64,000 bases of DNA, taken from positions 3,240,001-3,304,000 of the forward strand of contig NZ_LT907844.1 of the NCBI RefSeq assembly GCF_900215505.1, written 5' to 3'. The position numbers were made by a program, and so were the translations under genes. Positions 4,699 to 34,174 of the stretch are shown here, one piece after another. The stretch comes from Cohaesibacter sp. ES.047 (GTDB lineage Bacteria > Pseudomonadota > Alphaproteobacteria > Rhizobiales > Cohaesibacteraceae). Position 1 is the stretch's first letter, and each line of letters begins with the position of its first letter. The notes under the pieces are model-generated. The model did not search any database, was not told the origin of the DNA, and saw only the letters and a program-made list of their open reading frames with translations.

Positions 4699-4702
4699 AT
4701 CC

Positions 4703-7651: not shown

Positions 7652-7708
7652 GTGTCTGCAAGCTGTCGCATACTGCGCGGCGTGGGATCTCATGGCCATT
7701 GTCGGGCT

Positions 7709-8464: not shown

Positions 8465-8489
8465 ACCCCTCCCGGCACAGGTGATTGAC

Positions 8490-9521: not shown

Positions 9522-9533
9522 GCCGATTTCCAA

Positions 9534-18986: not shown

Positions 18987-20069
18987 TCAGGTGCGGGTGG
19001 GAGCAGGGCCGGTGCTTTCGCGAATTTGAAAGATCGGCTTGATCTCGATGGACTTGCTCTTGTCGACCGGGCCCTTCGAAACCTGTCCCAGAATCTGAGC
19101 AGCTAGGCTACCGATGCGCTGGTTGTCGACCTTCATCGTCGTCAGTTTCGGTGTGAAGCGAGAAGCCATGTCCAGATCGTCAAAGCCCGAAATGGAAAAA
19201 TCATCCGGTGCTTTCAACCCCATTTCTTTGGCAGCCATCAAGGCACCAATGGCGAGCGCATCGTTACCGCAAACAATCGCGGTGGGGCGTTCATCAGCCT
19301 TTTTGTCCATCAATTCCTTGAAGCTTCTGGCTCCGAAATCTAGCGAGGCTCTGCCCACGCAAAGAGCGTCGTCAGAGAGCGTGATGCAGGCCTCTGACAG
19401 AGCATCTTTGAGCCCTCGCAGACGCTCCGTGGCACGGGAGTTGTTCTCGAGCGGCTGAAATATCGCGGCAAACCGGCGATGGCCATGCGAGAGAAAATGA
19501 TGCGTCATCCTGTAGAAGGCGGCATGGTTGTCAAAGCCAACGAACGCATAGGGAAGATCGGTGCGAAAGGCATAGGTGATCAGAAACGGAACCTTGCGTG
19601 TCTCGAGGGCCGTGAATAGCGCTTCGGGATAGTTTTCACCCGCCAGAACAAGTGCCTCAACGCCGCGCGTGAGCATGGCTGTCGCCTGCTTCAAACCCTG
19701 CTCGGGGTCATAGTTGGTGCACCCCAGAAACAGCGTCAGGCCATGGTCGGAAAGGCCGCTTTGAAGGCCTGAAATCTGCCGTGCATAAACTTCATTATCG
19801 AGGGTGGGAATGATGGCCCCGGCGATGTGGGTTCGGTTTGAGGCGAGGGCCTTTCCCGCTGCATTCGGAATCCAGTTCAGCTCTGCCGCCGCTTTGAGGG
19901 TCCGTTCTCTGACTTCTTTTTTCACCTTCTGGGGTTCGTTGAATGTGCGCGACACTGTCGCTGTTGAAACCCCCGCAAGCGCGGCGACATCAGCCAACCT
20001 GACGAACCCTTTGCTGCCGCGGGTCCTCTGTTCTGAAGATCCGTTTTTTGTTGATTTTTTGTTGTTCAT
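18987..20069 (-). CDS. LacI-family transcriptional regulator (1)
   Basis: This roughly 360-residue regulator has an N-terminal helix-turn-helix (VRLADVAALAGVSTATVSRTFN, about 23-44) and hinge helix, then a periplasmic-binding-protein-like effector domain (IAGAIIPTLDNEVYARQISGLQ onward; FDDLDMASRFTPKLTT near the end). A GTG at 20090 is an alternative start that adds seven residues. It is divergent from the PfkB kinase gene, and the spacer holds a perfect palindrome overlapping the kinase -10 element. It therefore probably represses the downstream sugar or sugar-acid genes and releases on binding a pathway sugar. Confidence 0.9.
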   Translation of the reverse strand: MNNKKSTKNGSSEQRTRGSKGFVRLADVAALAGVSTATVSRTFNEPQKVKKEVRERTLKAAAELNWIPNAAGKALASNRTHIAGAIIPTLDNEVYARQISGLQSGLSDHGLTLFLGCTNYDPEQGLKQATAMLTRGVEALVLAGENYPEALFTALETRKVPFLITYAFRTDLPYAFVGFDNHAAFYRMTHHFLSHGHRRFAAIFQPLENNSRATERLRGLKDALSEACITLSDDALCVGRASLDFGARSFKELMDKKADERPTAIVCGNDALAIGALMAAKEMGLKAPDDFSISGFDDLDMASRFTPKLTTMKVDNQRIGSLAAQILGQVSKGPVDKSKSIEIKPIFQIRESTGPAPTRT

Positions 20070-20127
20070 AGGAAGCTTCTTTCTGTTCACGAACCCTGTC
20101 GCCCCACACTGTTGCGCGATTCTAAGG

Positions 20128-20166
20128 TTGACATCCAGAGCTTACAGCGTAATGTAAGCGCTTACA
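20128..20166 (+). promoter_or_regulatory. Promoter with LacI-type operator
   Basis: TTGACA (20128-20133) and TAATGT (20150-20155) are spaced by 16 bases. TGTAAGCGCTTACA (20153-20166) is a perfect 14-base palindrome with a central CG, the classic LacI/GalR-family operator shape, and overlaps the -10 element. A half-site GCTTACA occurs just upstream at 20140-20146. This is strong evidence that the divergent LacI protein represses the 20181-gene transcript. Confidence 0.8.
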
Positions 20167-20180
20167 AATGGAGGCCCGTA

Positions 20181-21059
20181 ATGATCATCTGTTTTGGTTC
20201 GCTGAATGCGGACATGACCTTCCAAATGGATAAAGCTCCGAAGTCGGGGCAAACCCTGCTGGCAAACTCCTTCACGATGAGTGCTGGAGGGAAGGGCGCC
20301 AATCAGGCCGTTGCGGCCGCGCGCCTTGGTGGTGAAGTGGCCATGGTCGGTGCTGTTGGCTCGGATGCGCTTGCGCAGGTCGCCCTCGAACATCTCAAGG
20401 CATCCAACTGTGATGTCAGCCGCGTGGCTGTCGTTGATCACCCCACCGGTTGCGCTTCCGTTATCGTTGATTCAAGTGCTCACAATCAGATTGCCGTCGC
20501 CATGGGCGCGAACGAGCTGGCGCGCGCGACGAGCGTCGATGACGCATTGCTGCAGCGGGCCAATATTCTGCTTCTTCAGATGGAGAGCGGCAAGGCTGAG
20601 GTCGAAACACTTCTGAAACGGGCCAAAGAGGCCGGTGTGAAGAGCATCCTCAATCTGGCACCTGCGGTGAAGATCGATCTTGAGGCGCTCAAGGCCTGCG
20701 GCATCCTGGTTGTCAATGAAGACGAAGCCGAATTTGTTGCTCAGTGGCTGGCCTGTGATCCATCGGCTCAAAGCATCAGCAAGACACTCGGTATCTGCGT
20801 GATCCGCACCCTCGGATCTGATGGCGCTGAAGCGGCAGACGGCGAGGATGTGTTCAAGGTCAGCGCAGTCCGCGTTGATGCAAAGGACACCACCTCTGCT
20901 GGCGACTGCTTCGTCGGAGCGCTGGCATCATTCCTTGACCAGAATTTTTCGCTCAAAGACGCGATGGAGAAGGCGAGCCTCGCAGCGGCGATTTGCTGCT
21001 CGCGCCACGGCAGTCAGATCAGTCTGCCATGGGCCGATGAGCTTGTGAAGGCGGCATAA
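20181..21059 (+). CDS. PfkB-family sugar kinase (ribokinase-like)
   Basis: This 292-residue cytoplasmic kinase uses ATP to phosphorylate a sugar or sugar acid. The N-terminal PfkB signature GGKGANQAVAAARLGG (about 36-51) and the C-terminal active-site motif DTTSAGDCFVGAL are clear; the Asp before CF is the catalytic base. The Ser in DTTSAGD replaces the more usual Gly or Ala. GGAGG at 20170-20174 fixes the start. Ribokinase and 2-keto-3-deoxygluconate kinase are the closest known activities; the sequence alone does not separate them. It is the first gene after the LacI operator. Confidence 0.85.
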   Translation: MIICFGSLNADMTFQMDKAPKSGQTLLANSFTMSAGGKGANQAVAAARLGGEVAMVGAVGSDALAQVALEHLKASNCDVSRVAVVDHPTGCASVIVDSSAHNQIAVAMGANELARATSVDDALLQRANILLLQMESGKAEVETLLKRAKEAGVKSILNLAPAVKIDLEALKACGILVVNEDEAEFVAQWLACDPSAQSISKTLGICVIRTLGSDGAEAADGEDVFKVSAVRVDAKDTTSAGDCFVGALASFLDQNFSLKDAMEKASLAAAICCSRHGSQISLPWADELVKAA

Positions 21060-21134
21060 GCAATACCAGACCGGCCCTATGTACGGCTACATGAGCCTTA
21101 GTCGGTGGGTCGGAATTCAAGCAGGAAGAAGAAG

Positions 21135-22061
21135 ATGACCAAGAAATTCGAAGGGATCATACCGGTTATGATCACGCCGTTCAAAGACGGCAAGATTGAC
21201 TATCCGGGTGTGACCAATCTGGTGGAATGGTATATTGCCAATGGCGTTGATGCGCTGTTTGCCGTTTGCCAGTCCAGCGAGATGCTGTTCCTCGACCTCG
21301 AAGAGCGTATCGCACTGGCTGAACATGTCGCAAAGGTCGTTGCAGGCCGCGTTCCCGTCATTGCCTCCGGTCATGTGAGCGAAAGCCTTGAAGACCAGAT
21401 CGCCGAATTGTCCGCCATCGCCAAAACTGGTGTTGACGGTATCGTTCTGGTGACCAACCGCCTTGATGCCAAACAGCAGGGTGGCACCAAGTTCATCGAT
21501 GACATGAAGGAAATTCTCGCCGCTCTTCCGGCCGATATGCCTCTTGGTCTTTATGAATGCCCGGCGCCTTATCGCCGGTTGCTGACGGACGAGGAAATCA
21601 AATTCTGTGCCGACAGCGGTCGCTTTGTCATTCTCAAGGATGTCTCTTGTGATCTGGAAACCGTCAAGCGGCGTGTTGAACTGACCAAAGGCACCCCTCT
21701 GGCAATCGTCAACGCCAATGCTGCCATCGCCTTTGATGCAATGAAGGCTGGCTCGCGTGGGTTCACTGGCGTTTTCACGAACTTCCATCCCGATCTCTAC
21801 AAGTGGCTGATGATCAGCCATCAGGATCATCCGGAACTGGCAGATAAGCTCTCTGTCTATCTCGCTCTGGCAGCAATGGCCGAGCCGATGGGCTATCCGA
21901 AGCTCGCAAAACTCTATCATCAGCAGCTTGGCACATTCGCCCAGATTGAAAGCCGCGCAGTCACGTTCGACATCGTCGAAAAATTCTGGGCGCTTGATGT
22001 CCTGCTGGCGAAGATCGTTGAGGGGCAAAACGCCTTTCGCGCAAAGATCAAGGCTCTGTAA
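21135..22061 (+). CDS. NAL-superfamily lyase, CQSSE variant (1)
   Basis: This 308-residue TIM-barrel protein belongs to the DapA / N-acetylneuraminate lyase superfamily. It keeps the Schiff-base lysine (VILKDVSCD, near 165) and a tyrosine in GLYECPAPY (near 137). The motif that binds the pyruvate carboxylate, normally GTTGE, reads CQSSEM (near 46-51). The tandem neighbour at 22627 has the same change. The two share much sequence and make a distinct subgroup. I infer a pyruvate-releasing aldolase or a dehydratase acting on a long-chain ulosonic or keto-deoxy acid. GCAGGAAG supports the ATG at 21135. Confidence 0.82.
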   Translation: MTKKFEGIIPVMITPFKDGKIDYPGVTNLVEWYIANGVDALFAVCQSSEMLFLDLEERIALAEHVAKVVAGRVPVIASGHVSESLEDQIAELSAIAKTGVDGIVLVTNRLDAKQQGGTKFIDDMKEILAALPADMPLGLYECPAPYRRLLTDEEIKFCADSGRFVILKDVSCDLETVKRRVELTKGTPLAIVNANAAIAFDAMKAGSRGFTGVFTNFHPDLYKWLMISHQDHPELADKLSVYLALAAMAEPMGYPKLAKLYHQQLGTFAQIESRAVTFDIVEKFWALDVLLAKIVEGQNAFRAKIKAL

Positions 22062-22626
22062 AAAGAGTCCCCGCGGCGGAGGGCGCCGTCCTACGACCCT
22101 GATCAATCGACCATACCAGCGCATGGTTTGATGATCCTCCTAACAGAGAAGGTCGGGACTGGACGCCCTCTGCTTCAAATTTAAAGTGTGCAAGGAATTG
22201 GAAGTCTTGAACCGTGACTTGTTTCAGATTTCTCCATGCGTGGCCCGACCTGAGGATAGGGCTATAAAAAAGTTGGTGATGATCGGATCACAAAGTCACA
22301 AAACCCGTCCGGAAGAGGTTGCCAACAGACCTAAAATGGACTAGATGTCGATTGCTAACTCGTAACAGCAAGCAATTCTGGGAGGATTTGCGAAAAACCA
22401 AAGTTTGAGCACGTCGTGTGAAAAGACCCGTCCATCTCGCCCGATTTTCTATTGGCGAAGATGTCGGGATCAAGTTCCGCGGCAGTTGATCAGCGGATGG
22501 ATCGCACGTCATTCCACAAAAAGCAGATGTCGAGCCAGCAGTATCTTTCGATGCGCGATGAGCAGACCCCGAACCGTCTTCCCGGCCTTTTCTCACTCGC
22601 GTGACTATACAGAACAGGCAGCAACG
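22062..22626. other. Long spacer between the tandem lyases
   Basis: There are 565 bases between two genes that otherwise look co-directional and related. I see no convincing coding sequence, strong terminator or operator palindrome. The second lyase frame could be read upstream to 22405, but that part shows no family similarity. The spacer may hold an independent promoter. Confidence 0.45.
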
Positions 22627-23580
22627 ATGACTGATAAAGACAACGCGGCACTCGAGCATCATTCCGGCGTATGGCCCGTGATGCTGACCCCATTTACTGA
22701 CACGCTGGAAATCGACTGGAAATCGCTCGAGAAGCTGATTGACTGGTATATTGATTGTGGTGTTCACGGCCTCTTCGCAAACTGTCAGTCGAGCGAAATG
22801 TTCTTCTTGTCCGAAGAGGAATCGCTCAAGCTAACCAAATTCGTGGTCGATCATGCGAATGGTCGCGTTCCTGTCGTTGCCTCCGGTCACACCGCGTCTT
22901 CTCCCTCCCATCAGGCTGAACAGCTTCAGGCGCAGGCTGAAACCGGTGTCGACAGCGTGATCATGATCAGCAACCGTCTTGCGACGGCTGATGAATCCGG
23001 TGAAGTCTTCCTGCGGCGTCTGCAGGACATGACCGCGCAGATTCCCGAAAAAGTCGGTGTTGGGCTTTATGAGTGCCCTTATCCTTACAAGCGCCTGCTT
23101 CCCGATGAAGCTGTCAAATGGTGCGCCCAATCCGGTCGCTACACCTTCATCAAGGACACTTGCTGCGATCCGGAAATGCTCAAGCGCCGGGCCAAGCTGG
23201 TCGAAGGCAGTGAGCTGCATATCGCCAACGCCAATGCCCAGACCGTGCTGGAAAGCCTGAAGGCAGGTTGTCATGGCTATAGTGGTGTGATGGCAAACTT
23301 CCATCCTCAGCTTTGGGTGTGGCTGCTTGAAAACTGGAAGACCGAGCCCGAGAAAGCAGAGACATTGTCTCAGTATCTGACGTCTGCTGCTATGCTTGAA
23401 GCTCTGGATTATCCGGTCTGTGCCAAAAGCTATCAGAAGTCGATCGGCAATTTCGCGACCGATCTTTGCCGCACCCGGCCCACCGGTGGTTACTATGCAA
23501 ACCACTTCCCCACGACCGTTGCACAGACAATTGCGCTCGGTGAAAAACTTGCCGAGATGCTTGGTCTCGACGTCAAATAG
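22627..23580 (+). CDS. NAL-superfamily lyase, CQSSE variant (2)
   Basis: This 317-residue protein is a paralogue of the preceding lyase. It shows CQSSEMFFL (near 55), YECPYPYKRLL with the catalytic-type tyrosine (near 146), and the Schiff-base lysine in TFIKDTCCD. The C-terminal segment differs from the first copy (GGYYANHFPTTVAQ). The ATG at 22627 has only a weak ribosome-binding site but is where family similarity begins. It is 16 bases before the hydroxyacid dehydrogenase, so they are probably one operon. Two enzymes may act on related substrates, or the pair may form a mixed complex; both are inference. Confidence 0.82.
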   Translation: MTDKDNAALEHHSGVWPVMLTPFTDTLEIDWKSLEKLIDWYIDCGVHGLFANCQSSEMFFLSEEESLKLTKFVVDHANGRVPVVASGHTASSPSHQAEQLQAQAETGVDSVIMISNRLATADESGEVFLRRLQDMTAQIPEKVGVGLYECPYPYKRLLPDEAVKWCAQSGRYTFIKDTCCDPEMLKRRAKLVEGSELHIANANAQTVLESLKAGCHGYSGVMANFHPQLWVWLLENWKTEPEKAETLSQYLTSAAMLEALDYPVCAKSYQKSIGNFATDLCRTRPTGGYYANHFPTTVAQTIALGEKLAEMLGLDVK

Positions 23581-23596
23581 GGATTAGGAGGGATCA

Positions 23597-24550
23597 ATGG
23601 GACATAAAGTACTCGTTACCGCCACCAACTATTCAAAACTCTGCGGTGCCGCCAAGGCGCTGCTCGAAGAGAATGACTGCGAAATCATCGAAAGCCCGTT
23701 CGGTCGCCCGATGACATTCGATGAAATCAAGGAACGGATTTCCGGTGTCGAGGCGGTTGTTGCCGGTGTTGATGACTGGAATGAAGATGTCTTCAAGATC
23801 GCTCCGGATCTGAAGGTCATCTCGCGCTTTGGTGTTGGCGTCGATAATATCGATGTTGAAACCGCACGGAAATACGATGTCAAGGTTACAAACGCGGCTG
23901 GTGGCAACTCCAATGCCGTTGCGGAATTGACAATCGGGCTTATCATTGGCGCGATGAGACATGTTCCGCAGCTGCATGTGACGACAAGGCAGGGCGCATG
24001 GGATCGTTTCGTGGGTGACGAGATTGTCAATCGCACGGTCGGTCTGCTTGGTTTCGGCAATATCGCACGCCTCATCGCCAAGAAACTTCAGGGCTTTGAC
24101 GTCAATGTCGTTGCTTACGACAAGTTTCCGAACATGGAAGCAGCCAATGAACTGAATGTTGCCATGATGGAAGCCGATGAGGTTATTTCATCCGCGGATG
24201 TTCTTTGCATGATGCTGCCAAGCCTGCCCGAGACACAGCATTTCATGAACGCCGAAACCTTCGGCAAGATGAAAGATGGTGCCTATCTGATCAACACCGC
24301 GCGCGGGGCCCTTGTCGACGAGATAGCACTCGCTGATGCTCTGAACAGCGGCAAGTTGCGTGCCGCAGCCATTGATGTTTATGAACAGGAGCCAACGTCT
24401 CCGGACAACCCGCTCTTTAACATTCCCAACATCGTGACAACACCGCATACGGCAGCAGAAACCTACGAAACCTACCACGGAGTGGGGCTGTTGACCGCGA
24501 ACGCCATTCTTGACGTTTTTGCAGGACGCGAGCCGAAAAACCTTCTCTAG
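23597..24550 (+). CDS. D-2-hydroxyacid dehydrogenase (2)
   Basis: This 317-residue NAD(P)-dependent enzyme belongs to the D-isomer-specific 2-hydroxyacid dehydrogenases. The Rossmann motif is GLLGFGNIARLIAKKL (near 149). The catalytic residues are Arg in NTARGALVD, Glu in YEQEPTSP and His in TPHTAAET. AGGAGGGATCA upstream is a strong ribosome-binding site. It sits between the CQSSE lyases and the TRAP importer. It may reduce pyruvate or a keto acid released by the lyases, or oxidise the imported hydroxyacid. A similar dehydrogenase stands beside the lyase of the first locus. Confidence 0.85.
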   Translation: MGHKVLVTATNYSKLCGAAKALLEENDCEIIESPFGRPMTFDEIKERISGVEAVVAGVDDWNEDVFKIAPDLKVISRFGVGVDNIDVETARKYDVKVTNAAGGNSNAVAELTIGLIIGAMRHVPQLHVTTRQGAWDRFVGDEIVNRTVGLLGFGNIARLIAKKLQGFDVNVVAYDKFPNMEAANELNVAMMEADEVISSADVLCMMLPSLPETQHFMNAETFGKMKDGAYLINTARGALVDEIALADALNSGKLRAAAIDVYEQEPTSPDNPLFNIPNIVTTPHTAAETYETYHGVGLLTANAILDVFAGREPKNLL

Positions 24551-24563
24551 GCAGAACAATGAT

Positions 24564-24587
24564 GTGAGCGCAGCTTGCTGCGCTCAC
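24564..24587. terminator. Perfect hairpin before the TRAP genes
   Basis: GTGAGCGCAG-CTTG-CTGCGCTCAC is a ten-pair stem with a G(CTTG)C tetraloop. No T-run follows, so complete termination is doubtful. It probably marks a processing or partial-termination point between enzyme and transporter genes. Confidence 0.55.
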
Positions 24588-24636
24588 TCCCGCAAAAAAA
24601 ACTCTAACCAACAACAGGCTAAAAAGGGAGGGTTTT

Positions 24637-25149
24637 ATGAATATATTCGGTTTTCTGGACCGACATCTGGAGCGAATAGTCGTCACGGGCGTTCTGATGA
24701 CGACAACGATCACACTGGTGATCCAGGTGTTTATGCGTTACGTGCTCGCCGAACCGCTCGTTTGGGCTGAGGAGTTGGCGCGCTATCTTTTGGTCTGGTG
24801 CACGATGGTTGGTGCCAGCCTGGCGGTGAAAGAATCCCGCCATATTATCGTGGACTTTGCTCCCGTTCTCTTCGGTCCTCGTTCAATCAAGCTGTTCTCG
24901 ATCATCTCCCATACCGGGGTGTTGGTCTTCTGTGCTGTCATTCTCTACTACAGCATCCCGTTTGTGCAGCGGGTCATGGCCATCGGGCAGCTTTCTCCGA
25001 CGCTGCAAGTGCCCATGTGGACGGTGTATCTCGCACTGCCGGTTGGCTGTGGCATGGCGGCTCTGCGTACCATTCAGGCAATCTACAAAGAAACCCGCAA
25101 GCCCGATGCAGACGTTGTTCTGGGCACCCCTGTGGAGGAGGCTGACTAA
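24637..25149 (+). CDS. dctQ: TRAP transporter small membrane subunit DctQ
   Basis: This 170-residue protein has four hydrophobic segments (about 13-33, 48-65, 84-108, 128-147), the layout of TRAP small subunits. ERIVVTGVLMTTTITLVIQVFMRYV and the WAEELARYLLVW segment are family-typical. It works with DctM and the binding protein DctP to import organic or sugar acids with a sodium gradient. AAGGGAGGG precedes the ATG. Its stop overlaps the dctM start by one base. Confidence 0.93.
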   Translation: MNIFGFLDRHLERIVVTGVLMTTTITLVIQVFMRYVLAEPLVWAEELARYLLVWCTMVGASLAVKESRHIIVDFAPVLFGPRSIKLFSIISHTGVLVFCAVILYYSIPFVQRVMAIGQLSPTLQVPMWTVYLALPVGCGMAALRTIQAIYKETRKPDADVVLGTPVEEAD

Positions 25150-26426
25150 TGTATCCGATAGTTGCCCTGACTTCGTTCCTGTTCCTTCTTCTTCTGACAA
25201 TCCCCATCGCGATGTCGTTGGGTCTGGCTGCGTTTGTGCCGGGCTGGATGGGCGCGCCGATCAACTCCAGCCAGGTGGTCCGCACGATCGTAACCGCGAT
25301 CGACTCCTTCCCCCTGCTGGCTGTGCCTCTGTTCATGGTCGCCGGTGACATCATGACTCAGGGCGGTCTCGCCCGTCGTCTGTTCAGCTTCGCTGATGCC
25401 TTGCTGGGTCGACTGAACGGTGGTCTCGCCATCTCGACCGTTGTGGCCTGCATGCTGTTCGGTGCTATTTCAGGCTCTTCGCCTGCGACCGTTGCCGCCA
25501 TCGGCGCCATGGCAATCCCCTTGCTGGTGAGCAATGGCTACGACAAACGCTTCGCAACCGTTCTTGTGACGACCGCAGGAACCCTTGGGGTGATCGTGCC
25601 GCCAAGTATCCCGATGATCATCTACGGTATGGCAGCGAACGTGTCCGTGAGCCGTCTGTTCATGGCTGGGATCGGCCCTGCACTGACCATCGCCTTCCTG
25701 CTGTGCTCTTGGGCATTCTGGTACGGCACCAAGCACAAAGACAAAATCAAGACAACCGCAGGCAACATTCCGCTTATGACGGCTATGCGCCAGAGCGTCT
25801 GGGCTCTGCTGGCTCCGGTCGTTGTTCTGGGTGGTATCTATTCGGGTGCCTTCACCCCGACTGAAGCTGCCGCGATTGCTGTGGCCTACAGTGCCGTTAT
25901 CTCGATATTCGTGTTCCGCGAGATGACCTTCATGCAATTGGTCAACACGGTTGGCCGGACGGCGCTGACGGTGGCTCCCATCCTGATTATTGCAGGCACG
26001 GGTGCAGCTCTTGGCCGCGTTTTCAACCTCCTGCGTGTGCCGGTCATGCTTGGTGATCTGATCAACAGCATCGTCAGCGAACCAATCATGCTCTTGCTGC
26101 TGATCAACTTCATGCTGCTGCTTATCGGCATGTTCATGGAAACACTGGCTGCGATCATTGTGCTGACGCCGATCTTCCTGCCCATCGTGTTGCCATATGG
26201 CATTGATCCGCTCCATTTCGGTCTGATCTTGACCACCAACCTTGCAATCGGATTTGTTACCCCGCCGGTCGGCGCCAACATCTTCATTGCAACGGGACTA
26301 ACCAAGCTCAGTGTCGTGGACATCTGTAAGGGTCTACCCGTGCCGCTGTTCCTGCTGATCTTGGGGCTGGCCGCGATCACTTATGTTCCGGAGCTGTCCC
26401 TGTGGCTTCCAAATGCCTTCGGGTAA
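25149..26426 (+). CDS. dctM: TRAP transporter large membrane subunit DctM
   Basis: This 425-residue polytopic protein is the permease subunit of the TRAP importer. The VPLFMVAGDIMTQGG and GAISGSSPATVAAIGAMAIP segments early, and GFVTPPVGANIFIATGL near residue 370, are hallmarks of DctM. Length and the dozen or so hydrophobic segments are normal. The start codon ATG overlaps the dctQ stop (TAATG). Confidence 0.95.
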   Translation: MYPIVALTSFLFLLLLTIPIAMSLGLAAFVPGWMGAPINSSQVVRTIVTAIDSFPLLAVPLFMVAGDIMTQGGLARRLFSFADALLGRLNGGLAISTVVACMLFGAISGSSPATVAAIGAMAIPLLVSNGYDKRFATVLVTTAGTLGVIVPPSIPMIIYGMAANVSVSRLFMAGIGPALTIAFLLCSWAFWYGTKHKDKIKTTAGNIPLMTAMRQSVWALLAPVVVLGGIYSGAFTPTEAAAIAVAYSAVISIFVFREMTFMQLVNTVGRTALTVAPILIIAGTGAALGRVFNLLRVPVMLGDLINSIVSEPIMLLLLINFMLLLIGMFMETLAAIIVLTPIFLPIVLPYGIDPLHFGLILTTNLAIGFVTPPVGANIFIATGLTKLSVVDICKGLPVPLFLLILGLAAITYVPELSLWLPNAFG

Positions 26427-26483
26427 AGCCAAATGACGAAGTTCTCTCAATTCCAAACCAGTTCAACAAAAGGGAGTGAAACC

Positions 26484-27485
26484 ATGAAACATTTCAACAA
26501 ACTTCTTGCCGGTGTGGCGCTCGTCGCCATGACCGCTACGGGTCCAGCATGGTCTGCAGACTATACCATGATCATGGCTCATACGCTGTCAGACACCGAA
26601 CATCCGATCTATCAGGCATTCCTGAAACTCAAGAGCGAGATCGAGGAAAAATCTGACGGTCGCATCGAAGTGATCGATCAGGGTGGTGGTGCTCTGGGTG
26701 GTGACCGCGAGATCATGGAATCGACCATGTTTGGCGATATCCAGTTCGGCCCGATGTCTACCTCTGGTGCAACCCAGTTCATCAAAGAACTGTCCGTCTT
26801 TGACATTCCTTACGTCATGCCTACCGATGATGCGGAACGTAAGGCTCTGGTCAACGACGGCCCGCTTGCCGAAGCAATTTCCAAGGCACTTGATGCCAAA
26901 GGACTGCGCTACGAAGGCATCATGAACGGTGGTTTCCGTAACCTGACAACTGCGAAAACCGAAGTTCATAGCCCAAAAGATATCGCTGATGCAGGCTTGC
27001 GCATCCGCGTTCAGGAAAACCCTGTTCACATCAAGATCTGGAAAGACCTCGGCGCAGCTCCGACCCCGATCTCGTTCCCGGAACTCTATGGAGCCCTGCA
27101 GCAGGGTGTTGTTGACGGTCAGGAAAACCCCTATGGCCATATTCTGTCCCAGCGCTTCTACGAAGTTCAGGGCTACTTGACCAATACCCGTCACATCTTC
27201 CTCGCCAACATTTCGATGATCAACAAAGGCTGGTACGAAAGCCTTCCTGATGATCTGAAAAAAGTTGTCGATGACGGTTTCAAAACTGCAACCGACTTCC
27301 AGTGGAAGGTTCAGGCAGAGCTGGAAGATTCCCAGCGTGCTGAATTGGCCAAGAATATGACCATCATCGATCTGACCCCGGAAGAGTTGAAGCAGTTTCA
27401 GGATAAAACCGCCGATGTTGCGAACTTGGTTCGCGAAACGGCTGGCGATGAAATCGTCGATACTCTGATGAACGAAATCAAATAA
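26484..27485 (+). CDS. dctP: TRAP transporter solute-binding protein DctP
   Basis: This 333-residue periplasmic receptor starts with a signal peptide (MKHFNKLLAGVALVAMTATG, cleavage after WSA). The DctP-family core is present: GALGGDREIMES, then GLRIRVQENP whose second arginine normally binds the ligand carboxylate, and GVVDGQENPYGHI. So the ligand is an acid. The family includes sialic-acid, uronate and keto-acid receptors. AGGGAG at 26471-26476 fixes the start. A strong hairpin follows the gene, as after tctC. In context I suggest an ulosonic acid such as Kdo as ligand; this needs direct testing. Confidence 0.92.
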   Translation: MKHFNKLLAGVALVAMTATGPAWSADYTMIMAHTLSDTEHPIYQAFLKLKSEIEEKSDGRIEVIDQGGGALGGDREIMESTMFGDIQFGPMSTSGATQFIKELSVFDIPYVMPTDDAERKALVNDGPLAEAISKALDAKGLRYEGIMNGGFRNLTTAKTEVHSPKDIADAGLRIRVQENPVHIKIWKDLGAAPTPISFPELYGALQQGVVDGQENPYGHILSQRFYEVQGYLTNTRHIFLANISMINKGWYESLPDDLKKVVDDGFKTATDFQWKVQAELEDSQRAELAKNMTIIDLTPEELKQFQDKTADVANLVRETAGDEIVDTLMNEIK

Positions 27486-27505
27486 GTTCCAACTCTCCCA
27501 AGAAG

Positions 27506-27540
27506 GGTTGTCGCCGGTTCCCCTCGGACTGGCGGCAACC
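27506..27540 (+). other. Stem-loop after dctP
   Basis: GGTTGTCGCCGG pairs over twelve positions with CTGGCGGCAACC if two G-U pairs are allowed. There is no T-run. It probably protects the 3' end of the binding-protein message. Confidence 0.5.
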
Positions 27541-27614
27541 ACCTGCGGCGATCATCTCGATCCTGTGCCGCAGAATGAATGCTTCTGCAAATTATCCGCC
27601 TGAAAAGTGAGCTT

Positions 27615-29237
27615 ATGACAGATAAAAAAACGTCGTATCTGGTCGCAAGTGGTGACTTGCGCCCAAGCGCGAACGAAACCTGTTGGCCTGCGCAAGCTGA
27701 AATGGAAGCGAAGCTGACCAAGGTAATCGAAACCCTTGGCGGCTCCGTTACGAGAGCCCATCCCTACAAGGAAGACCTCAAACATGGCTTCATTGCGAGC
27801 CAGAAGGAAGGGCTTGAAGTTTTCGCCAATCTGGATCGCAAGGCGCCGCTGATCGTCGCTGAAGCTGTCTGGCAATATTCCCAGCACCTGCTGGCCGGTC
27901 TGATCGCCCATGAAGGCCCGATCCTGACAGTAGGCAACTGGTCTCCGACCTATCCCGGTTTGGTTGGCCTGCTCAACCTGAACGGCTCGCTGACCAAAGC
28001 TGGCGTGAAATATTCCTCGCTCTGGAGTGTCGACTTCGAGGACGAGTGGTTTATCGAACGCCTCGGTGAATGGCTGAAAACCGGATCCGTCTCCCACGAT
28101 ACCAGCCACGTCACCGCCTACACGCCTTCCGCAAACCAAAAGGCTGTGTCTCTGGCCAAGGATATTGCAGGCGATCTGCGCGAAAAACGCTCCATCATGG
28201 GCATTTTCGATGAAGGCTGCATGGGCATGTATAATGCCATCATTCCCGATGAAATGCTGTTCCCCCTCGGCATCTTCAAGGAACGCCTGTCCCAATCCGC
28301 GCTCTATTACGCCACCACGCAGGTCTCCGATGAAGACGCACGCGAAGCCTATGACTGGCTCGTCAAGAGCGGCATCACCTTCCATTATGGCAAGGACGGT
28401 GCGACGGATCTCATCGAAGAGCAGGTGCTGCTGCAGTGCAAAATGTACATTGCCGCGGTCCGCATTGCTGAAGACTTCGGCTGTGAGACTATCGGCATCC
28501 AGTATCAGCAGGGCCTGAAAGACCTTCTGCCTGCCTCCGACCTTGTCGAAGGCCTCCTCAACAATGATGAACGCCCGCCGGTCAAGAATGCCAAAGGCGA
28601 GGTCATTCGCGATGGACAAGCTGTTGTGCATTTCAACGAAGTGGATGAGTGCGCCGGTCTTGATGCCCTGATGACCAATCGTATTCATCGTGCGCTCGGC
28701 CAGCCAGTGGAGACCACGCTGCACGATCTGCGCTGGGGTGACTTTGATCAGTCGGGCACGACGGACGAGTATGTCTGGGTGTTCGAGATTTCTGGAGCTG
28801 CTCCGGCAGCCCATCATGGCGGGTACAGCATGAGTTCCTCCATGCGGCAACCCGCCATGTTCTTTCCCGCAGGTGGCGGCACCTTGCGCGGTATCGCCAA
28901 GCCCGGCGAAATCGTTTGGTCGCGCATCTTCGTTGAAGATGGCAAGCTGAAAATGGACCTTGGCCGCGGTAAGGCGATCTCGTTGCCTGAAGAAGAAACC
29001 GAGCGTCGCTGGACCCAGACGGACTATGCCTGGCCCATGATGCATGGCGTTCTTTACGGCGTTACCCGTGACCAGATGATGGCGCGCCATAAGGCCAACC
29101 ACATTCAGGTGGTCTACGCAACCGATGCCGATGCTGCCGATCAGGCCATGGCAACCAAAGCCGCGCTTGCAAGCGAACTCGGCATGGAAGTCAGCCTTTG
29201 CGGAACCGCCGCTGATGGCGGACCGCTCAAGTCCTGA
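27615..29237 (+). CDS. L-fucose/D-arabinose isomerase-family protein
   Basis: This 540-residue protein resembles the L-fucose isomerase superfamily, which interconverts aldoses and ketoses (L-fucose to L-fuculose, D-arabinose to D-ribulose) using a metal. The C-terminal part shows [17 protein letters not shown] and then KANHIQVVY. These parallel the E. coli FucI segment around the metal-binding His of its ANHG motif. [10 protein letters not shown] (near 195-204) is a likely acidic active-site segment in the middle domain. It is followed by an FGGY pentulose kinase. The pair would convert D-arabinose to D-ribulose and then D-ribulose 5-phosphate. The family call is fairly secure; the substrate is inference. 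The ribosome-binding site is weak. Confidence 0.72.
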
Positions 29238-29269
29238 TCTGCCCTTAAGAGGGTTGTTTAATAAAATCA

Positions 29270-29298
29270 GGCGCTGCCGACCCAAGGTTGGCAGTGCC
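29270..29298 (+). other. Stem-loop between isomerase and kinase
   Basis: GGCGCTGCCGACC and GGTTGGCAGTGCC pair over thirteen positions (two G-U pairs) around a three-base loop. No T-run. It is probably an mRNA stability or processing element. Confidence 0.45.
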
Positions 29299-29404
29299 AT
29301 CGCATGGGAATTTCGTTAAGCACAAATTCCACGGTTCTTACACAGACAGATTTTCGAAATCGAAAGCGCGGAAGGGGAGCCATCTCATTCCGTAAAGTGG
29401 AGAC

Positions 29405-31039
29405 ATGAGCGTGAGCAATTATTTCATCGGCATTGACGTAGGAACCGGCAGCGCACGCGCCGGCCTATTTGACGAGAGCGGAACGCTGCTTGGTGTTGCG
29501 AAAAAAGACATCCAGACCTGGCGCGAAGACGGGCATATCGTCGAGCAGTCCTCTGAAAATATCTGGCAGTCAATCTGCTATTGCACACGCAAGGTCCTTG
29601 CTGATGCCGGCATAAAGGATCCCTCTGAGGTCAAGGGCGTTGGCTTTGATGCCACCTGTTCTCTGGTGGTGCTCGATTCCCAAGGCACGCCGCTCCCCGT
29701 GGGGCCGTCTGATGATCCCGAGCGCAATATCATCGTCTGGATGGATCATCGTGCGATCAAAGAGGCGCACCGCATCAATTGCGGCCACTACGAAGTTCTC
29801 AATTATGTCGGCGGCACCATTTCACCTGAAATGGAAACGCCCAAATTGCTCTGGCTCAAAGAACACAAGCCAGATGTCTTCTCGGCAGCGGGGCATTTCT
29901 TTGATCTTGCAGATTTCCTGTCATGGCGCTCCACCGGCTCGACCGCCCGCTCGGTATGCACGGTCACCTGCAAATGGACCTATATGGCCCATGAGAAGAA
30001 GTGGGATGCGGACTATTTCCATTCCATCGGTCTGGGTGACCTGACCAACAAAAATTTTGCCCGTATCGGCAGCGAGATTGTCGATATCGCAACGCCTCTT
30101 GGCAATGGGTTGACCGAAAAGTCGGCCGACGAATTGGGGCTTAGTGCCGGTACGCCGGTCGGGGCCTCTCTCATTGATGCCCACAGCGGTGGCGTGGGAA
30201 CCTTTGCCGGTCGTCTGCCCGACGGCACGACCCTTGAACCGGAGAAACAGATGTCCCTGATCATGGGGACATCAGCTTGCGCGATGGCTTTGGCCAAGGA
30301 CGCGACCTTCGTTGACGGCGTCTGGGGGCCCTATCATGGTGCCATGGTGCCGGGATACTGGCTGCTCGAAGGGGGGCAGTCGGCTTATGGCGCGGCCCTC
30401 GATCACCTGATTACGCTCCATCCGGCCTATGCCGAGGTGAAAGCGGCCGCAGGCGACAAGCCGATCCTCGTGCATCTTGAAGAACAGGCTCTCAAACTCG
30501 CAGGCTCCATGGATAAGGTGGCTTGGCTGGCTCAGGATCTTCAGGTCGTGCCCGAGTTTCTTGGCAACCGCGCTCCCTATGCCGACCCTGAAGCGACCGG
30601 CGTGATTTCTGGTCTCACACTTGATGCATCGGCCAATGGCCTTGTCAGGCTCTACGTCGCGGGTCTTTGTGGCCTTTGCTATGGCACGCGCCAGATCGTT
30701 GAAGCGCTCAGCAAGTCTGGCGTCGAGATTGATACGCTGGTGCTCAGTGGCGGTGCAGCGCAGAGCAGTCTCTTCCGCCGCATTCTTGCCGACACAACCG
30801 GCCTCAAGATCGCACTTCCCGAGACGGCCGAGCCCGTTCTCCTCGGTGGTGCCATCGTGGGTGCTGTTGCTGCAGGAACGTTCAAGGATCTTGTCGAGGC
30901 GGGCCAGACCATGTCGCGGATCAAGGACCTCGTTGAACCCGACACCGGCGACGTGATGCAATTGCACAACGCCAAGTTCGAAGCTTTCGGCTTGCTGCAG
31001 TCAGCTGACCGCAAGATCCGTGGGCTGGTGAAAAAGTAG
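29405..31039 (+). CDS. FGGY-family pentulose kinase
   Basis: This 544-residue kinase has the actin-like ATPase fold. The N-terminal phosphate motif is FIGIDVGTGSARAGLFD (about 7-23), followed by GVGFDATCSLVVLD and VWMDHRA, which are typical of the FGGY pentulose (ribulose) kinase subgroup. The FGGY signature region GLVRLYVAGLCGLCYGTRQI and the adenosine motif VLSGGAAQSSLFRR are in the second half. Family members of this length phosphorylate D-ribulose or L-ribulose. Placed after a FucI-like isomerase, it most probably makes D-ribulose 5-phosphate for the pentose phosphate pathway. GTGGAGA precedes the ATG. Confidence 0.88.
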   Translation: MSVSNYFIGIDVGTGSARAGLFDESGTLLGVAKKDIQTWREDGHIVEQSSENIWQSICYCTRKVLADAGIKDPSEVKGVGFDATCSLVVLDSQGTPLPVGPSDDPERNIIVWMDHRAIKEAHRINCGHYEVLNYVGGTISPEMETPKLLWLKEHKPDVFSAAGHFFDLADFLSWRSTGSTARSVCTVTCKWTYMAHEKKWDADYFHSIGLGDLTNKNFARIGSEIVDIATPLGNGLTEKSADELGLSAGTPVGASLIDAHSGGVGTFAGRLPDGTTLEPEKQMSLIMGTSACAMALAKDATFVDGVWGPYHGAMVPGYWLLEGGQSAYGAALDHLITLHPAYAEVKAAAGDKPILVHLEEQALKLAGSMDKVAWLAQDLQVVPEFLGNRAPYADPEATGVISGLTLDASANGLVRLYVAGLCGLCYGTRQIVEALSKSGVEIDTLVLSGGAAQSSLFRRILADTTGLKIALPETAEPVLLGGAIVGAVAAGTFKDLVEAGQTMSRIKDLVEPDTGDVMQLHNAKFEAFGLLQSADRKIRGLVKK

Positions 31040-31054
31040 ATTTGGTGAGCGTGT

Positions 31055-31121
31055 CCCGCTCCTCTGGTTGAGATCAGAGGAGCGGGGCAAACTGATTGGA
31101 TCGGCCCGGAAGGAGGGCCGA
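31055..31121. terminator. Tandem hairpins between convergent genes
   Basis: CCCGCTCCTCTG (31055-31066) and CAGAGGAGCGGG (31075-31086) form a perfect twelve-pair stem. TCGGCCC and GGGCCGA (31101-31121) form a second, seven-pair stem. They lie between the converging kinase and phosphatase genes and probably act as bidirectional terminators, though T-runs are lacking. Confidence 0.6.
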
Positions 31122-31153
31122 AACAATATGCCGTCGGGTGGAGGCTGGCGGTT

Positions 31154-31759
31154 TCAGGAGAGTGTTTTGGAATTCCAGACTTTGACCACGCCGTCTTCTA
31201 TCAGGCAAATATGCCCTGTGCCGACCTTGGCATCAGATGCCGAAATGCCATATCGCGGGGCGACCAGCCTCAGTATGCCGTTGCTGGTGACGATCACGGC
31301 GACCGCATCCAGTCCATATCGGCCCTCAATCGAGACCATCATGGCGTTCCAGTTGGACTGAATGACCTCTGCCCCCGGCAGCCATCCCAACCCTTCCGGC
31401 CAGACACTGTCTTTTTGCCATGCGTCTATCGCTGCGTCTCCGAATTCGGCGCGAATGTCCTCGTTGCTCTTGCCTTCCCAGTCGCCATAATCGATTTCCT
31501 TCAGGGCATCGGTAATCTCAATCGGTACGTCGGACCATCCGGCATGCTTGGACGCGATATCCGTGGTTTGGATGGTGCGCTTCAGCGGGCCGCAACAGAT
31601 CACCGATGGCTTGAGGCCACTTTGCTTAAGTGCCTCGCCAACAGCTGCCGCCTGTTCCTTGCCTTTCTCGACAAGATCAAGATCGCTGCGCGCACCGACC
31701 CAGACGACCTTGTCCTCGGGACCGAACGTGTTGCCGTGTCTGACAAGAATCACCTTCAT
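31154..31759 (-). CDS. Histidine phosphatase-family protein, altered site
   Basis: This 201-residue protein belongs to the histidine phosphatase (phosphoglycerate mutase-like) superfamily. The N-terminal LVRHGNT keeps the phospho-accepting His, and CCGPLKRTIQTT and EIDYGDWEGKS are typical. The second catalytic His, normally in a VSHGG-like motif, is replaced: the segment reads VTSNGIL (near 157). Activity may thus be low or different. The ATG overlaps the stop of the KdsB-like gene (ATGA), so the two are coupled. A small-molecule phosphatase acting with the cytidylyltransferase is a reasonable guess only. Confidence 0.8.
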   Translation of the reverse strand: MKVILVRHGNTFGPEDKVVWVGARSDLDLVEKGKEQAAAVGEALKQSGLKPSVICCGPLKRTIQTTDIASKHAGWSDVPIEITDALKEIDYGDWEGKSNEDIRAEFGDAAIDAWQKDSVWPEGLGWLPGAEVIQSNWNAMMVSIEGRYGLDAVAVIVTSNGILRLVAPRYGISASDAKVGTGHICLIEDGVVKVWNSKTLS

Positions 31760-32550
31760 GCCTTGCTCCCTTCAACCAGTTCGCCTTCGCGGCGGATGAT
31801 CTCTTCGGCGATTGTGATGTCTTCTGCGGCATCAACAGACGCATGGGTGCGCCCGCGATAGTCGACAATGACCACGCGCACCGTCATGCCAGCTTCAAGG
31901 GCGCGCAGCTGTTCCAAACCTTCAGTTTGTTCAAGCGGAGAGGGGGGCAGGGACACATAGCGTTTGAGCGCCGGGACCCGATAGCCATAAAGCCCGATGT
32001 GGCGATAGACAGACGCAAAGCCCTGACTTCTGAAATAGGGCAGGATGGTTTTGGAGAAATAGAGCGCATTCTGTTTGGCATCGAACACCACGGTCGTGCC
32101 GCTTGCAGGATTGACCTTTTTGCTCTCGCGCAGCGCTTCGAGCGCCTCGGCAGTGAGCTTTGTTGCCGGGGTGACGAGATCGAAATCACCTTCGGCCTTC
32201 TCGAATTCGTCAATCATCGACTGCAGCACCCACGGCGGGGTCAGGACCGCATCGCCCTGAAAGTTGATCACGGCGTCCGCTTCGATGTTGGCCGCTTCGA
32301 TGGTCGCAAACGTCCGCTCCGTTCCGTTGCGGCAAGATTCTGGTGTCAGGACGGCTTCCGCTCCGAACGTCTTGGCATGGTCGACAACACGCTGATCCTC
32401 GGTGCTGATAACGACGCGGGAGCACCCGGTCGTCGCATTCGCAATGCGCCAGACACGTTCGAGCATGCTCAAGCCGAGAATGCCGAGCATCGGCTTGCCG
32501 GGCAGGCGGCTTGAACCATAGCGGGCTGGGATAATGATTGCAGTCGACAT
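31756..32550 (-). CDS. KdsB-like cytidylyltransferase
   Basis: This 264-residue protein resembles 3-deoxy-manno-octulosonate cytidylyltransferase, which makes CMP-Kdo from Kdo and CTP. The nucleotide loop IIPARYGSSRLPGKPM and VISTEDQRVVDHAKTFGAE are typical, as is VDAAEDI near the C-terminus. Two motifs deviate: the SGTDR region reads CRNGTERT, and the VQGDEP motif reads NFQGDAVLTP. So it may be a paralogue using a related keto-deoxy sugar acid rather than the lipopolysaccharide enzyme. Its location beside NAL lyases and a TRAP importer supports ulosonic-acid metabolism. It is coupled to the phosphatase-like gene downstream. Confidence 0.78.
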   Translation of the reverse strand: MSTAIIIPARYGSSRLPGKPMLGILGLSMLERVWRIANATTGCSRVVISTEDQRVVDHAKTFGAEAVLTPESCRNGTERTFATIEAANIEADAVINFQGDAVLTPPWVLQSMIDEFEKAEGDFDLVTPATKLTAEALEALRESKKVNPASGTTVVFDAKQNALYFSKTILPYFRSQGFASVYRHIGLYGYRVPALKRYVSLPPSPLEQTEGLEQLRALEAGMTVRVVIVDYRGRTHASVDAAEDITIAEEIIRREGELVEGSKA

Positions 32551-32715
32551 CAGGCGTTCCTCCGGTTCGGACCTGTCGTTGTTTTACGAACTGAGGCCAT
32601 GAATGGCCAGAGAGCGGCAAAAACAATTCTGTCTTTGTGAACAGCTGGGGGCCAGATTGTGCCGTGTCTCATCTTACCGGAGCCGGACCGCGCCTGTTCC
32701 TGCCAGTGGATCGCC

Positions 32716-33747
32716 TCAGCCAGCATCCGCATGTTGGCTGCGAGAGGAAAGCCGCACGAGTCTTGTATCGATGATCTGTGGCTCGATATCCATTTCTAGT
32801 TTGTCCATTTGCGATTTCAATTGCGCGAAAATGGACTGGGCCAGTCCCTCTTCATTCTGCTTGATCGCGAAGACGAGATTGGGCAAAAACTCCAGCAAGC
32901 CGTCATAGTCGAACGTGCCGATGACAAGATCGGACGGAACCTGACCCAGCTGTGACTTGAGCTGATCCAGAACACCTTCCAAGACCAGAAGAGACGAGCA
33001 GAGAATGGCTGGCGGCAGCTCCTGATTGTCTGCGAGCAGCATCGCACCAAGTTCCTTGCCTGCTTCGATGCTGTCGTCCGAAACTGACAGGACCACGGCA
33101 TCTTCATCGCTCAAGCCTGCTTCACGCGCCGTTTCGCGAAAACCGGCGATACGATACTCGATACTTGGATTTTCCGGATGACCGCACAGGAGCGCAATGC
33201 GCGAGCAGCCATGCTCGGCTATGCGCTTGGTGATCATACGGGCGCTCTCGGAATGATTGCTTGAGATAAAGGGGGCTGAAACGTCCGGATAGTAACGGTC
33301 GATTGCGACCAATGGTGTCTTTTTGGCCCGTTTCAGTCCTGCGGTAAAGCTTTTTTGAGAACAGGGGGCAATGATCAAACCGTCAACGCCGCGTCCCAGC
33401 ATGCTGTTGATGGCCTTGAGTTCCAGGTCAGGGTCTTCACCGCTCGACGTCGTGATCAGCACGAGATCCTCGGCGCGACACATAACCTCAAGATAGGCGA
33501 TGAGATTGGCAAAAAAGGTGTTGGCCAGATCCGGCACGACAAATCCGACCGTATAGCTGCGCTTCATTTTCAAATTGCGCGCCGTCTGGTTGATCGTATA
33601 GCCACCATGGTCGGCGACATATTGCTCAATGGTCTTCTGGGCCTGATCGCTGATGCGATAGGTCTTTGCCTGTCCTTTTAAAACCAGGGTGATTGTCGTT
33701 CTGGAATATCCTGTTGCAGCAGCGATTTCCGATATTGTTTTTGGCAT
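32716..33747 (-). CDS. LacI-family transcriptional regulator (2)
   Basis: This 343-residue regulator has an N-terminal helix-turn-helix (TISEIAAATGYSRTTITLVLKG, about 4-25), the linker segment GYTINQTARNLKMKRS, and an effector domain starting TVGFVVPDLANTFFANL. The N-terminus is more like the FruR/Cra side of the family. I use the ATG at 33747 because the family begins there. It lies 165 bases upstream of the KdsB-like gene on the same strand. A palindrome GGCCAT-GA-ATGGCC at 32595-32608 in that spacer could be its site, but this is weak. It could respond to a sugar or phosphosugar of the pathway. Confidence 0.88.
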   Translation of the reverse strand: MPKTISEIAAATGYSRTTITLVLKGQAKTYRISDQAQKTIEQYVADHGGYTINQTARNLKMKRSYTVGFVVPDLANTFFANLIAYLEVMCRAEDLVLITTSSGEDPDLELKAINSMLGRGVDGLIIAPCSQKSFTAGLKRAKKTPLVAIDRYYPDVSAPFISSNHSESARMITKRIAEHGCSRIALLCGHPENPSIEYRIAGFRETAREAGLSDEDAVVLSVSDDSIEAGKELGAMLLADNQELPPAILCSSLLVLEGVLDQLKSQLGQVPSDLVIGTFDYDGLLEFLPNLVFAIKQNEEGLAQSIFAQLKSQMDKLEMDIEPQIIDTRLVRLSSRSQHADAG

Positions 33748-34174
33748 GAGGTCCAATCGATCACAAAAGTGAGCTGAGAGCATCGAAGTCTATGACAACC
33801 TCGAAAAAGGTCAGGATAGAGCCGGTCCCTCGCAGGGTTCATTTCTGTCTTTTGGGCAAACCATGCAATTGGCCCATGAACGACAAGAAAGCTTCAAAGA
33901 TACAAGAAATATAGTGACTTATCTCCGCCGAGGCAATGAACAAAACTACGTGCTTCGTCAAGATGAGCGCATTTGTCTAGCCGTCACGACCCTTGAGAGC
34001 AAAGCAGGGAGGCATGGGTGAAAGGCTTGGCACATTCGGGCTGTCGACCGTCGATTTTTTGAAACCCCACGGGGGAACCAATTGCCACCTTCAAGGGTTC
34101 TTGTTGAAAGGGCAGTGGATGACTGCTTGTGTTTCACCAAGGCTGATATGCTGAAACGATTGCCAAAGGGACAA
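33748..34174. other. Intergenic region, lacI2 / exoD
   Basis: This divergent spacer of about 430 bases must contain both promoters. I see no clear palindrome, RNA gene or coding frame. Part of it (34082-34174) could extend the exoD frame upstream. Confidence 0.4.

Follow-up and report, generated by a model that had tools for sequence, protein, structure and literature searches.

We analyzed 64,000 nucleotides of Cohaesibacter sp. ES.047 (the window; bases 3240001-3304000 of a one-contig, 5.11 Mb genome, here G000) and describe, at window positions 18987-33783, a conserved cluster that reads as an operon of catabolic type acting on an ulosonic-type acid; 3-deoxy-D-manno-oct-2-ulosonic acid (Kdo) or a close relative is the foremost candidate substrate, with a probability of about one half. 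The cluster comprises two modules: module A, which holds LacI1, an RbsK-like kinase and NAL1, a lyase of the N-acetylneuraminate lyase (NAL) superfamily, and module B, which holds a second such lyase (NAL2), a D-2-hydroxyacid dehydrogenase (2HADH), a tripartite ATP-independent periplasmic (TRAP) importer, a FucI-like isomerase and an FGGY kinase, together with KdsB2, HPase and LacI2. Judged from the sequences, the balance tips just past even that module B, with module A alongside it, is an operon that breaks down Kdo or a 3-deoxy-ulosonic acid very close to it. The features, in window coordinates, are as follows.

18987..20090, minus strand: LacI1, LacI-family regulator of module A (PF00356/PF13377)
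20181..21059, plus strand: RbsK-like PfkB sugar kinase of module A (PF00294, 4.3e-47)
21135..22061, plus strand: NAL1, NAL/DapA-superfamily lyase (PF00701, 1.7e-25, 89.8 bits)
22353..22370, plus strand: putative LacI2 operator TGCTAACTCGTAACAGCA, 5' of NAL2 (palindrome recurrence)
22627..23580, plus strand: NAL2, candidate ulosonic acid (Kdo-type) aldolase (PF00701, 2.4e-21, 76.2 bits)
23597..24550, plus strand: 2HADH, resembling phosphoglycerate dehydrogenase (PGDH) (PF02826, 8.6e-59)
24637..25149, plus strand: DctQ, TRAP small permease (PF04290, 2.6e-35)
25149..26426, plus strand: DctM, TRAP large permease (PF06808, 9e-104; TIGR00786 over cut-off)
26433..27485, plus strand: DctP, TRAP solute receptor (PF03480, 1.9e-72; TIGR00787 over cut-off)
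27579..29237, plus strand: FucI-like aldose isomerase, candidate D-arabinose isomerase (weak PF02952; AlphaFold2 model)
29405..31039, plus strand: FGGY pentulose kinase, candidate D-ribulokinase (TIGR01315)
31154..31759, minus strand: HPase, histidine-phosphatase-like partner of KdsB2 (PF00300)
31756..32550, minus strand: KdsB2, CMP-Kdo synthetase-like cytidylyltransferase (TIGR00466 over cut-off)
32716..33747, minus strand: LacI2, FruR/Cra-like LacI-family regulator of module B (TIGR02417-like, below cut-off)

The strongest evidence for the grouping comes from its recurrence in other genomes. Genes of the NAL2 type (at least 58% identity to the window copy) are rare, occurring in 8 of 397 genomes of the window's taxonomic order, in one genome of the same phylum outside the class (G929), and on plasmid records from Martelella, Proteus (two) and Klebsiella. 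At E<=1e-40 the family is found in 2 of 385 class genomes and 8 of 398 phylum genomes, the own genome counted, with G929 the one new close copy. We compared 13 NAL2 loci, leaving out the second Proteus record; two of them, L125 and L161, share a single G370 contig. The isomerase is present in eight (the window, L119, L149, L148, L145, L157, L163 and L164), the isomerase and FGGY together in seven (L145 having no FGGY match), and a LacI2-like gene in 11 (all except L161 and L165, with L185 counted for L119). Clusters that pair NAL2 with the isomerase span the window's order, Proteus, Klebsiella and the one same-phylum genome outside the class. Because this combination of genes returns in other genera and in a second class, the grouping of module B goes beyond chance, and the pathway skeleton of uptake, NAL-type cleavage, FucI-type isomerase and FGGY kinase proposed in the initial annotation is supported. 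The same comparison, which had been suggested as a check on the isomerase-kinase pair, came out divided, as the pair is found in 7 of the 13 loci but not in the remaining 6.

The loci also fall into two disjoint sets by the partner that adjoins NAL2: 2HADH in six, each with a TRAP importer, and a sialidase-fold protein in the other seven, of which six have a Tct importer and one a major facilitator superfamily (MFS) transporter. L145 carries the Tct importer plus distant TRAP matches (31-33%) and forms a co-directional run of isomerase, NAL2, sialidase fold, TctCBA, LacI2, KdsB2 and HPase. L125, from another family, has NAL2 and TRAP followed by NAL1 and RbsK, so that modules A and B are neighbors again. 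On the Klebsiella plasmid (L164 4721-17042), typed as conjugative, a run of FGGY, isomerase, NAL2, sialidase fold, MFS and LacI genes is flanked by IS5 and IS110 transposases.

A shared operator-like palindrome accompanies these genes. TGCTAACTCGTAACAGCA, at 22353, recurs with 0-1 mismatches 5' of a module B gene in 10 of the 13 NAL2 loci, seven of which served to derive the pattern: it precedes NAL2 in the window, L119, L146-L149 and L165, FGGY in Proteus and Klebsiella, and the isomerase in L145. In the own genome it is the sole site with fewer than two mismatches, and the 12 loci scanned held no 0-1-mismatch site elsewhere; their 2-mismatch matches were scattered and uninformative. L125 offers nothing closer than a 2-mismatch site in front of RbsK, and chance also yields sites of that quality; L157 and L161 have no TGCTAACTCGTAACAGCA-type site at the promoter. 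Within the window alone, allowing up to 3 mismatches gives no excess of matches over chance, so the weight of the operator rests on its recurrence. The site was found by comparing upstream regions; a strict search for CG-centered LacI palindromes did not show it. A second, perfect palindrome, TGTAAGCGCTTACA, lies at 20153-20166 directly 5' of the RbsK start, and we assign it to LacI1. No operator was found 5' of KdsB2 in the window.

Every gene named in the initial annotation (TRAP importer, two NAL lyases, isomerase, FGGY kinase and KdsB-like enzyme) is an intact reading frame with Pfam or NCBIfam matches, and that gene list is borne out; RbsK, 2HADH, HPase, LacI1 and LacI2 were absent from it. 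Starts were revised by frame reading to ATG 20181 for RbsK, ATG 21135 for NAL1 and an ATG at about 22627 for NAL2. The two lyases are 46% identical, and both pass the NAL/DHDPS model PF00701 (NAL1 89.8 and NAL2 76.2 bits, cut-off 22.1). In alignment they keep the Schiff-base Lys (ILKD/FIKD) and the catalytic Tyr (YECP), and in NAL1 the GTTGE/GSTGE motif is replaced by CQSSE. QSSE occurs in all 51 distinct NAL1/NAL2-type genes, as CQSSE in 48 and AQSSE in 3. Both fall far under the DapA model cut-off and outside NanA (NF003164, 34.8 bits for NAL1 and 41.7 for NAL2, cut-off 281). Kdo cleavage lies within the chemistry of the superfamily, because E. coli NanA and human NPL, both NAL-superfamily enzymes, cleave Kdo according to excerpts of PMC13220900.

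By sequence the isomerase matches only the C-terminal domain Fucose_iso_C (PF02952, 37.6 bits, cut-off 29.3), with no NCBIfam model, and PDB sequence searches gave no useful match. An AlphaFold2 model built from a 33-sequence alignment (pLDDT 92) was more informative: all 41 of its PDB matches at E<=0.001 are D-arabinose, L-fucose or L-arabinose isomerases, the best being the D-arabinose isomerase 3a9r (9e-22), at a TM score of about 0.5, an identity of 16% and a large whole-chain rmsd (about 23). On this model the protein at 27579..29237 has the FucI fold. The FGGY kinase passes TIGR01315 (674 bits, cut-off 408.7), its closest solved structures being 3gg4/3l0q. A Pfam scan of 12 of the 13 cluster proteins (LacI2 by NCBIfam) found no fuculose-phosphate-type aldolase, which an L-fucose route needs. 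Given the isomerase matches, the FGGY score and the missing aldolase, the pair is most simply read as converting D-arabinose through D-ribulose to D-ribulose 5-phosphate.

DctP is closest to the solved receptors 4p47, 7bbr and 4pdh, and its motif GFRNLT...LRIRVQENPVH aligns residue by residue with the TRAP receptors 4p47 and 4pdh; its Arg is presumably the carboxylate binder of this receptor family. 2HADH resembles PGDH and hydroxypyruvate reductase by NCBIfam comparison, and the RbsK-like kinase scores 252.8 bits against TIGR02152, under the ribokinase equivalog cut-off of 299.65.

The initial annotation had treated the locus as a single pathway, and here the gene set stands but its unity does not: in the neighborhoods, which we read by tblastn and a composition-scored gene caller, NAL1 pairs with RbsK and not with the isomerase and FGGY. 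The NAL1 lyase family occurs at E<=1e-40 in 34 of 397 order genomes. Among 30 short NAL1 loci (about 4 kb each), an RbsK-type gene is nearby in 16, DctM in 15 and 2HADH in 11. In the wider stretches from the NAL1 search, isomerase matches are confined to L119, L145, L148 and L149, all of which bear NAL2, and FGGY matches also appear in two NAL1 loci without isomerase (L137 and L139).

Several observations on these lyases and their surroundings stand apart. Six own-genus loci (L129-L132, L151 and L152) place a NAL1/2HADH/RbsK/TRAP module near a ~800-amino-acid protein that looks like a glycyl radical enzyme by eye, and near a cupin-HTH-like regulator. E. coli SK1144 (L189 6001-11173) carries a NAL1-type lyase (59% to NAL1) with an HTH-PfkB kinase and TctCBA between araC and yabI; of 5426 E. 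coli genomes, 574 have a match to this PfkB-NAL1-TctC DNA, and in 572 the match spans at least 80% of the query. A YhcH-family gene adjoins NAL1-type genes on Salmonella and Pantoea plasmids (58% and 61% to NAL1). Within the window, a second sugar-acid cluster at 1965-9533 holds NAL3 (DHDPS family), 2HADH, a PdxA-family dehydrogenase and a D-threonate-kinase-like protein, with Tct-type transporter genes and a GntR-like regulator by eye, accompanied by an Fe-alcohol-dehydrogenase-like gene at 90-1208.

KdsB2 passes TIGR00466 (162 bits, cut-off 155.2), staying below the cut-offs of NF009905 and NF003948, and in alignment it keeps the two metal-binding Asp residues and the P-loop Lys, residues that excerpts of PMC3149649 name in KdsB. 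It is a second copy, a separate kdsB lying at G000:2280493. At E<=1e-60 KdsB2 is present in 26 of 397 order genomes, and we read its surroundings in 22 of them (leaving out G102, G288, G316 and G330). In all 22 it shares its strand with HPase, within about 30 bases in 17. In the histidine-phosphatase fold a second catalytic His (SHG) is expected; HPase has SNG at that position in 22 of 22 copies, and its role is perhaps altered or not that of a phosphatase.

KdsB2 adjoins NAL2 in four genomes of two families (G000/G355 and G370/G223). The G000/G355 copies are nearer to other genus copies sited elsewhere (75-79%) than to the other-family copies (66-69%), and on these identities the KdsB2/HPase pair seems to have come beside NAL2 twice; the pair is an independent cassette. 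In L201 and L203, where KdsB2 is away from NAL2, a distant TRAP system adjoins it. As proof of Kdo, KdsB2 was weakened by the location of most copies elsewhere and partly restored by the compact run KdsB2-HPase-KdsD-like-KdsA in G165 (L205 5523-8885). There the KpsF/KdsD-family isomerase is over TIGR00393 and below the KdsD equivalog cut-off, and KdsA reaches 407 bits (cut-off 314). This run, apparently of a CMP-Kdo-making type, is what most strongly ties KdsB2/HPase to Kdo; HPase may replace KdsC in it as the Kdo-8-phosphate phosphatase. The CMP-Kdo synthetase homologue that the initial annotation placed beside the cluster is thus present in the window, but in other genomes it usually lies elsewhere.

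The sialidase-fold partner of the sister clusters matches PF13088 (two copies scanned), and its proteobacterial copies have no evident signal peptide by eye. A model of the L148 copy (three-sequence alignment, pLDDT 83) resembles sialidases, with a Foldseek TM score of about 0.7; PDB sequence searches gave weak sialidase matches only. A related protein (33%) accompanies NAL, FGGY and isomerase genes in the planctomycete locus L080, and a homologue in Monoglobus pectinilyticus (43% to the Klebsiella copy) has GH106 rhamnosidase, GH95, arabinofuranosidase and pectinesterase genes as its neighbors. Because the plant pectin rhamnogalacturonan II (RG-II) holds rhamnosyl-Kdo, this last neighborhood fits RG-II. 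In Pandoraea the sialidase-fold gene has no isomerase or NAL match nearby.

From the observed genes, folds, conservation and shared palindrome, we infer the following reactions, regulation and substrate. The TRAP system would import the free acid, and NAL2 and NAL1, acting in parallel, would cleave Kdo to pyruvate and D-arabinose by a Schiff-base retro-aldol reaction. The FucI-like isomerase would convert D-arabinose to D-ribulose, and FGGY would phosphorylate this to D-ribulose 5-phosphate, which could enter the pentose phosphate pathway without further enzymes. NAL1 and RbsK may form a second route that phosphorylates the released aldose directly, and LacI2, through the operator at 22353, and LacI1, through that at 20153, would switch their respective halves. 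KdsB2 and HPase would form a side branch taking the same sugar to CMP-Kdo. In the Tct and MFS sister clusters the sialidase-fold protein may free the acid from an imported glycoside, and in the TRAP version 2HADH may handle some 2-oxo or 2-hydroxy acid step. The earlier statement that every step of Kdo use is represented leaves 2HADH and the ribokinase-like kinase unaccounted for.

A range of data weighs against Kdo as the substrate of such a pathway. The isomerase is missing from 5 of the 13 NAL2 loci, and the full isomerase-FGGY pair from 6, in the stretch fetched; G276, G357 and G370, the genomes behind four of the isomerase-less loci, lack it genome-wide at E<=1e-30, and the 22 plasmid records that carry it do not include the Martelella plasmid. 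Across the 397 order genomes, NAL2 and the isomerase co-occur in 5 of 8 NAL2 genomes (Fisher p 4e-5), a signal that is not significant when split by genus (p 0.23 within the own genus, 0.13 outside). NAL2 and KdsB2 co-occur in 6 of 8 (p 1e-6), significantly by genus only outside the own one (0.006). Shared ancestry accounts for part of this co-occurrence, and neighborhood conservation across two classes weighs more. The isomerase-FGGY pair also accompanies HpcH, RraA and other NAL-family genes and is not specific to Kdo. A second isomerase copy (81%) in the own genome (L192 9522-17563; G000:979001-999000) sits in an oligosaccharide/peptide-type cluster, beside an SBP_bac_5 ATP-binding cassette (ABC) transporter, an alpha/beta hydrolase and LacI; the isomerase family deals with an aldose of various origins. 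KdsB2 is not beside NAL2 in the other 18 genomes read, a link that is not tight, and a simple Kdo route offers no step for 2HADH. As a pathway marker the isomerase was rejected, since the best 80 of at least 595 relatives are widespread (Verrucomicrobiota, Planctomycetota and others), with weak NAL1 and NAL2 matches near 3 and 1 of the 80. In two further loci, E. coli DA33135 (L188 7708-16976) and L166, isomerase and FGGY stand with MFS, an enolase-superfamily dehydratase, a short-chain dehydrogenase/reductase (SDR), another NAL, HbpS-like and LacI genes; 82 of 5426 E. coli genomes contain DNA related to the Klebsiella FGGY/isomerase/NAL2 stretch, with no match extending over 80% of the query.

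A different 2-oxo sugar acid would give 2HADH a function, most plausibly the non-deoxy Ko, which NAL2 would split to hydroxypyruvate and D-arabinose, with 2HADH reducing the former to D-glycerate. The PGDH/hydroxypyruvate-reductase-like character of 2HADH agrees with such a job, as do the altered carboxylate-binding motif of the lyases (CQSSE) and the repeated placement of 2HADH beside NAL-type genes (module B, own-genus NAL1 clusters, Agrobacterium fabrum C58 and window 4703-6549). In seven of the 13 NAL2 loci, however, NAL2 adjoins the sialidase fold instead of 2HADH, no glycerate kinase is among the 13 cluster proteins scanned, and KdsB-type enzymes are known for 3-deoxy acids; we consider Ko unlikely. 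A sugar-acid route of comparably low probability dispenses with Kdo: 2HADH would oxidize an imported 2-hydroxy acid, a NAL enzyme would cleave the 2-oxo product, the isomerase and kinase would dispose of a tetrose or other aldose, and KdsB2/HPase would be present by chance. It gains from the company that isomerase and FGGY keep elsewhere (an enolase-superfamily dehydratase, SDR and another NAL in E. coli and Klebsiella; HpcH/RraA in rhizobia and order relatives) and from the independence of the KdsB2/HPase cassette. Against it stand the presence of that cassette beside NAL2 in two families, the sialidase fold, expected for ulosonosides rather than aldonates, and the YhcH-family genes, named sialic acid anomerases elsewhere, that adjoin NAL1-type genes on the Salmonella and Pantoea plasmids.

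That modules A and B are unrelated units for different acids, chance neighbors with only their superfamily in common, is very improbable. Each module does have its own LacI regulator and palindrome, and few loci read from the 34 of 397 lyase-family genomes hold module B. Yet the modules are adjacent again in L125, in another family (where the operator-like site ahead of RbsK, at 2 mismatches, is at chance level), and NAL1 and NAL2 both carry the QSSE/YECP signature. Kdo or a very close acid remains our preferred substrate, with support from the KdsB2/HPase-kdsD-like/kdsA run and from the sialidase fold in 7 of 13 loci, but offset by the siting of most KdsB2 copies elsewhere and by the 6 loci without the pair.

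Almost all Gram-negative outer membranes contain Kdo, as do plant RG-II and some algae, and therefore much of it must be degraded somewhere. Kdo aldolase (EC 4.1.2.23) is known from Aerobacter enzymology of the 1960s, and it performs the reaction predicted for NAL2, Kdo to pyruvate and D-arabinose. In an excerpt of a 2007 survey (PMC1940265) it is listed as an orphan activity and rated "difficult". Titles and abstract openings among the matches listed, in which subscription journals are thinly covered, described no Kdo catabolic gene cluster, and the excerpts of literature searched held only passing mentions of Kdo aldolase, lyase, catabolism or degradation. Our boldest proposal, held tentatively and at somewhat less than an even chance, is that NAL2, of the QSSE/YECP subfamily, is the missing gene of this orphan aldolase. 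It would head a horizontally spread regulon (the window's order, Martelella, Proteus and a Klebsiella plasmid) that feeds on Kdo from lipopolysaccharide, RG-II pectin or algal walls and can also reactivate Kdo as CMP-Kdo, with NAL1 and PfkB as a second, wider route (DNA in 574 of 5426 E. coli genomes). If true, the cluster provides a candidate gene for a lyase activity to which the 2007 survey excerpt assigned none. It also offers named, testable genes for Kdo breakdown, with enteric relatives, and a subfamily of lyases whose active-site signature is distinct.

Sialic acid (nan/sia) operons, with their SiaPQM TRAP system, NanA lyase, kinase and sialidase, are a natural comparison. Our cluster shares with them a TRAP importer, a NAL-superfamily lyase, a kinase for the released sugar, a local regulator and, in the sister clusters, a sialidase-fold partner. 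It differs in having no NanE or NanK among the 13 proteins scanned, QSSE in place of the GSTGE-type motif, and a sugar arm made of an isomerase and a pentulose kinase. FucI-type isomerases act on D-arabinose. FGGY D-ribulokinases are likewise known, according to excerpts of PMC12307932. The cluster resembles D-arabinose catabolism by FucI and the D-ribulokinases DarK (E. coli B) and Rbl (Citrobacter rodentium) in its predicted FGGY D-ribulokinase chemistry and FucI-type isomerase, whereas its pair is presumably fed by an aldolase and not by sugar uptake, and its isomerase is a remote branch without a meaningful PDB sequence match. KdsB2, finally, is like KdsB/KpsU in exceeding the TIGR00466 cut-off and keeping the metal Asp and Lys residues, and unlike E. 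coli KdsB in having QGDAV for QGDEP and in being a second genomic copy, paired with HPase in 22 of 22 loci.

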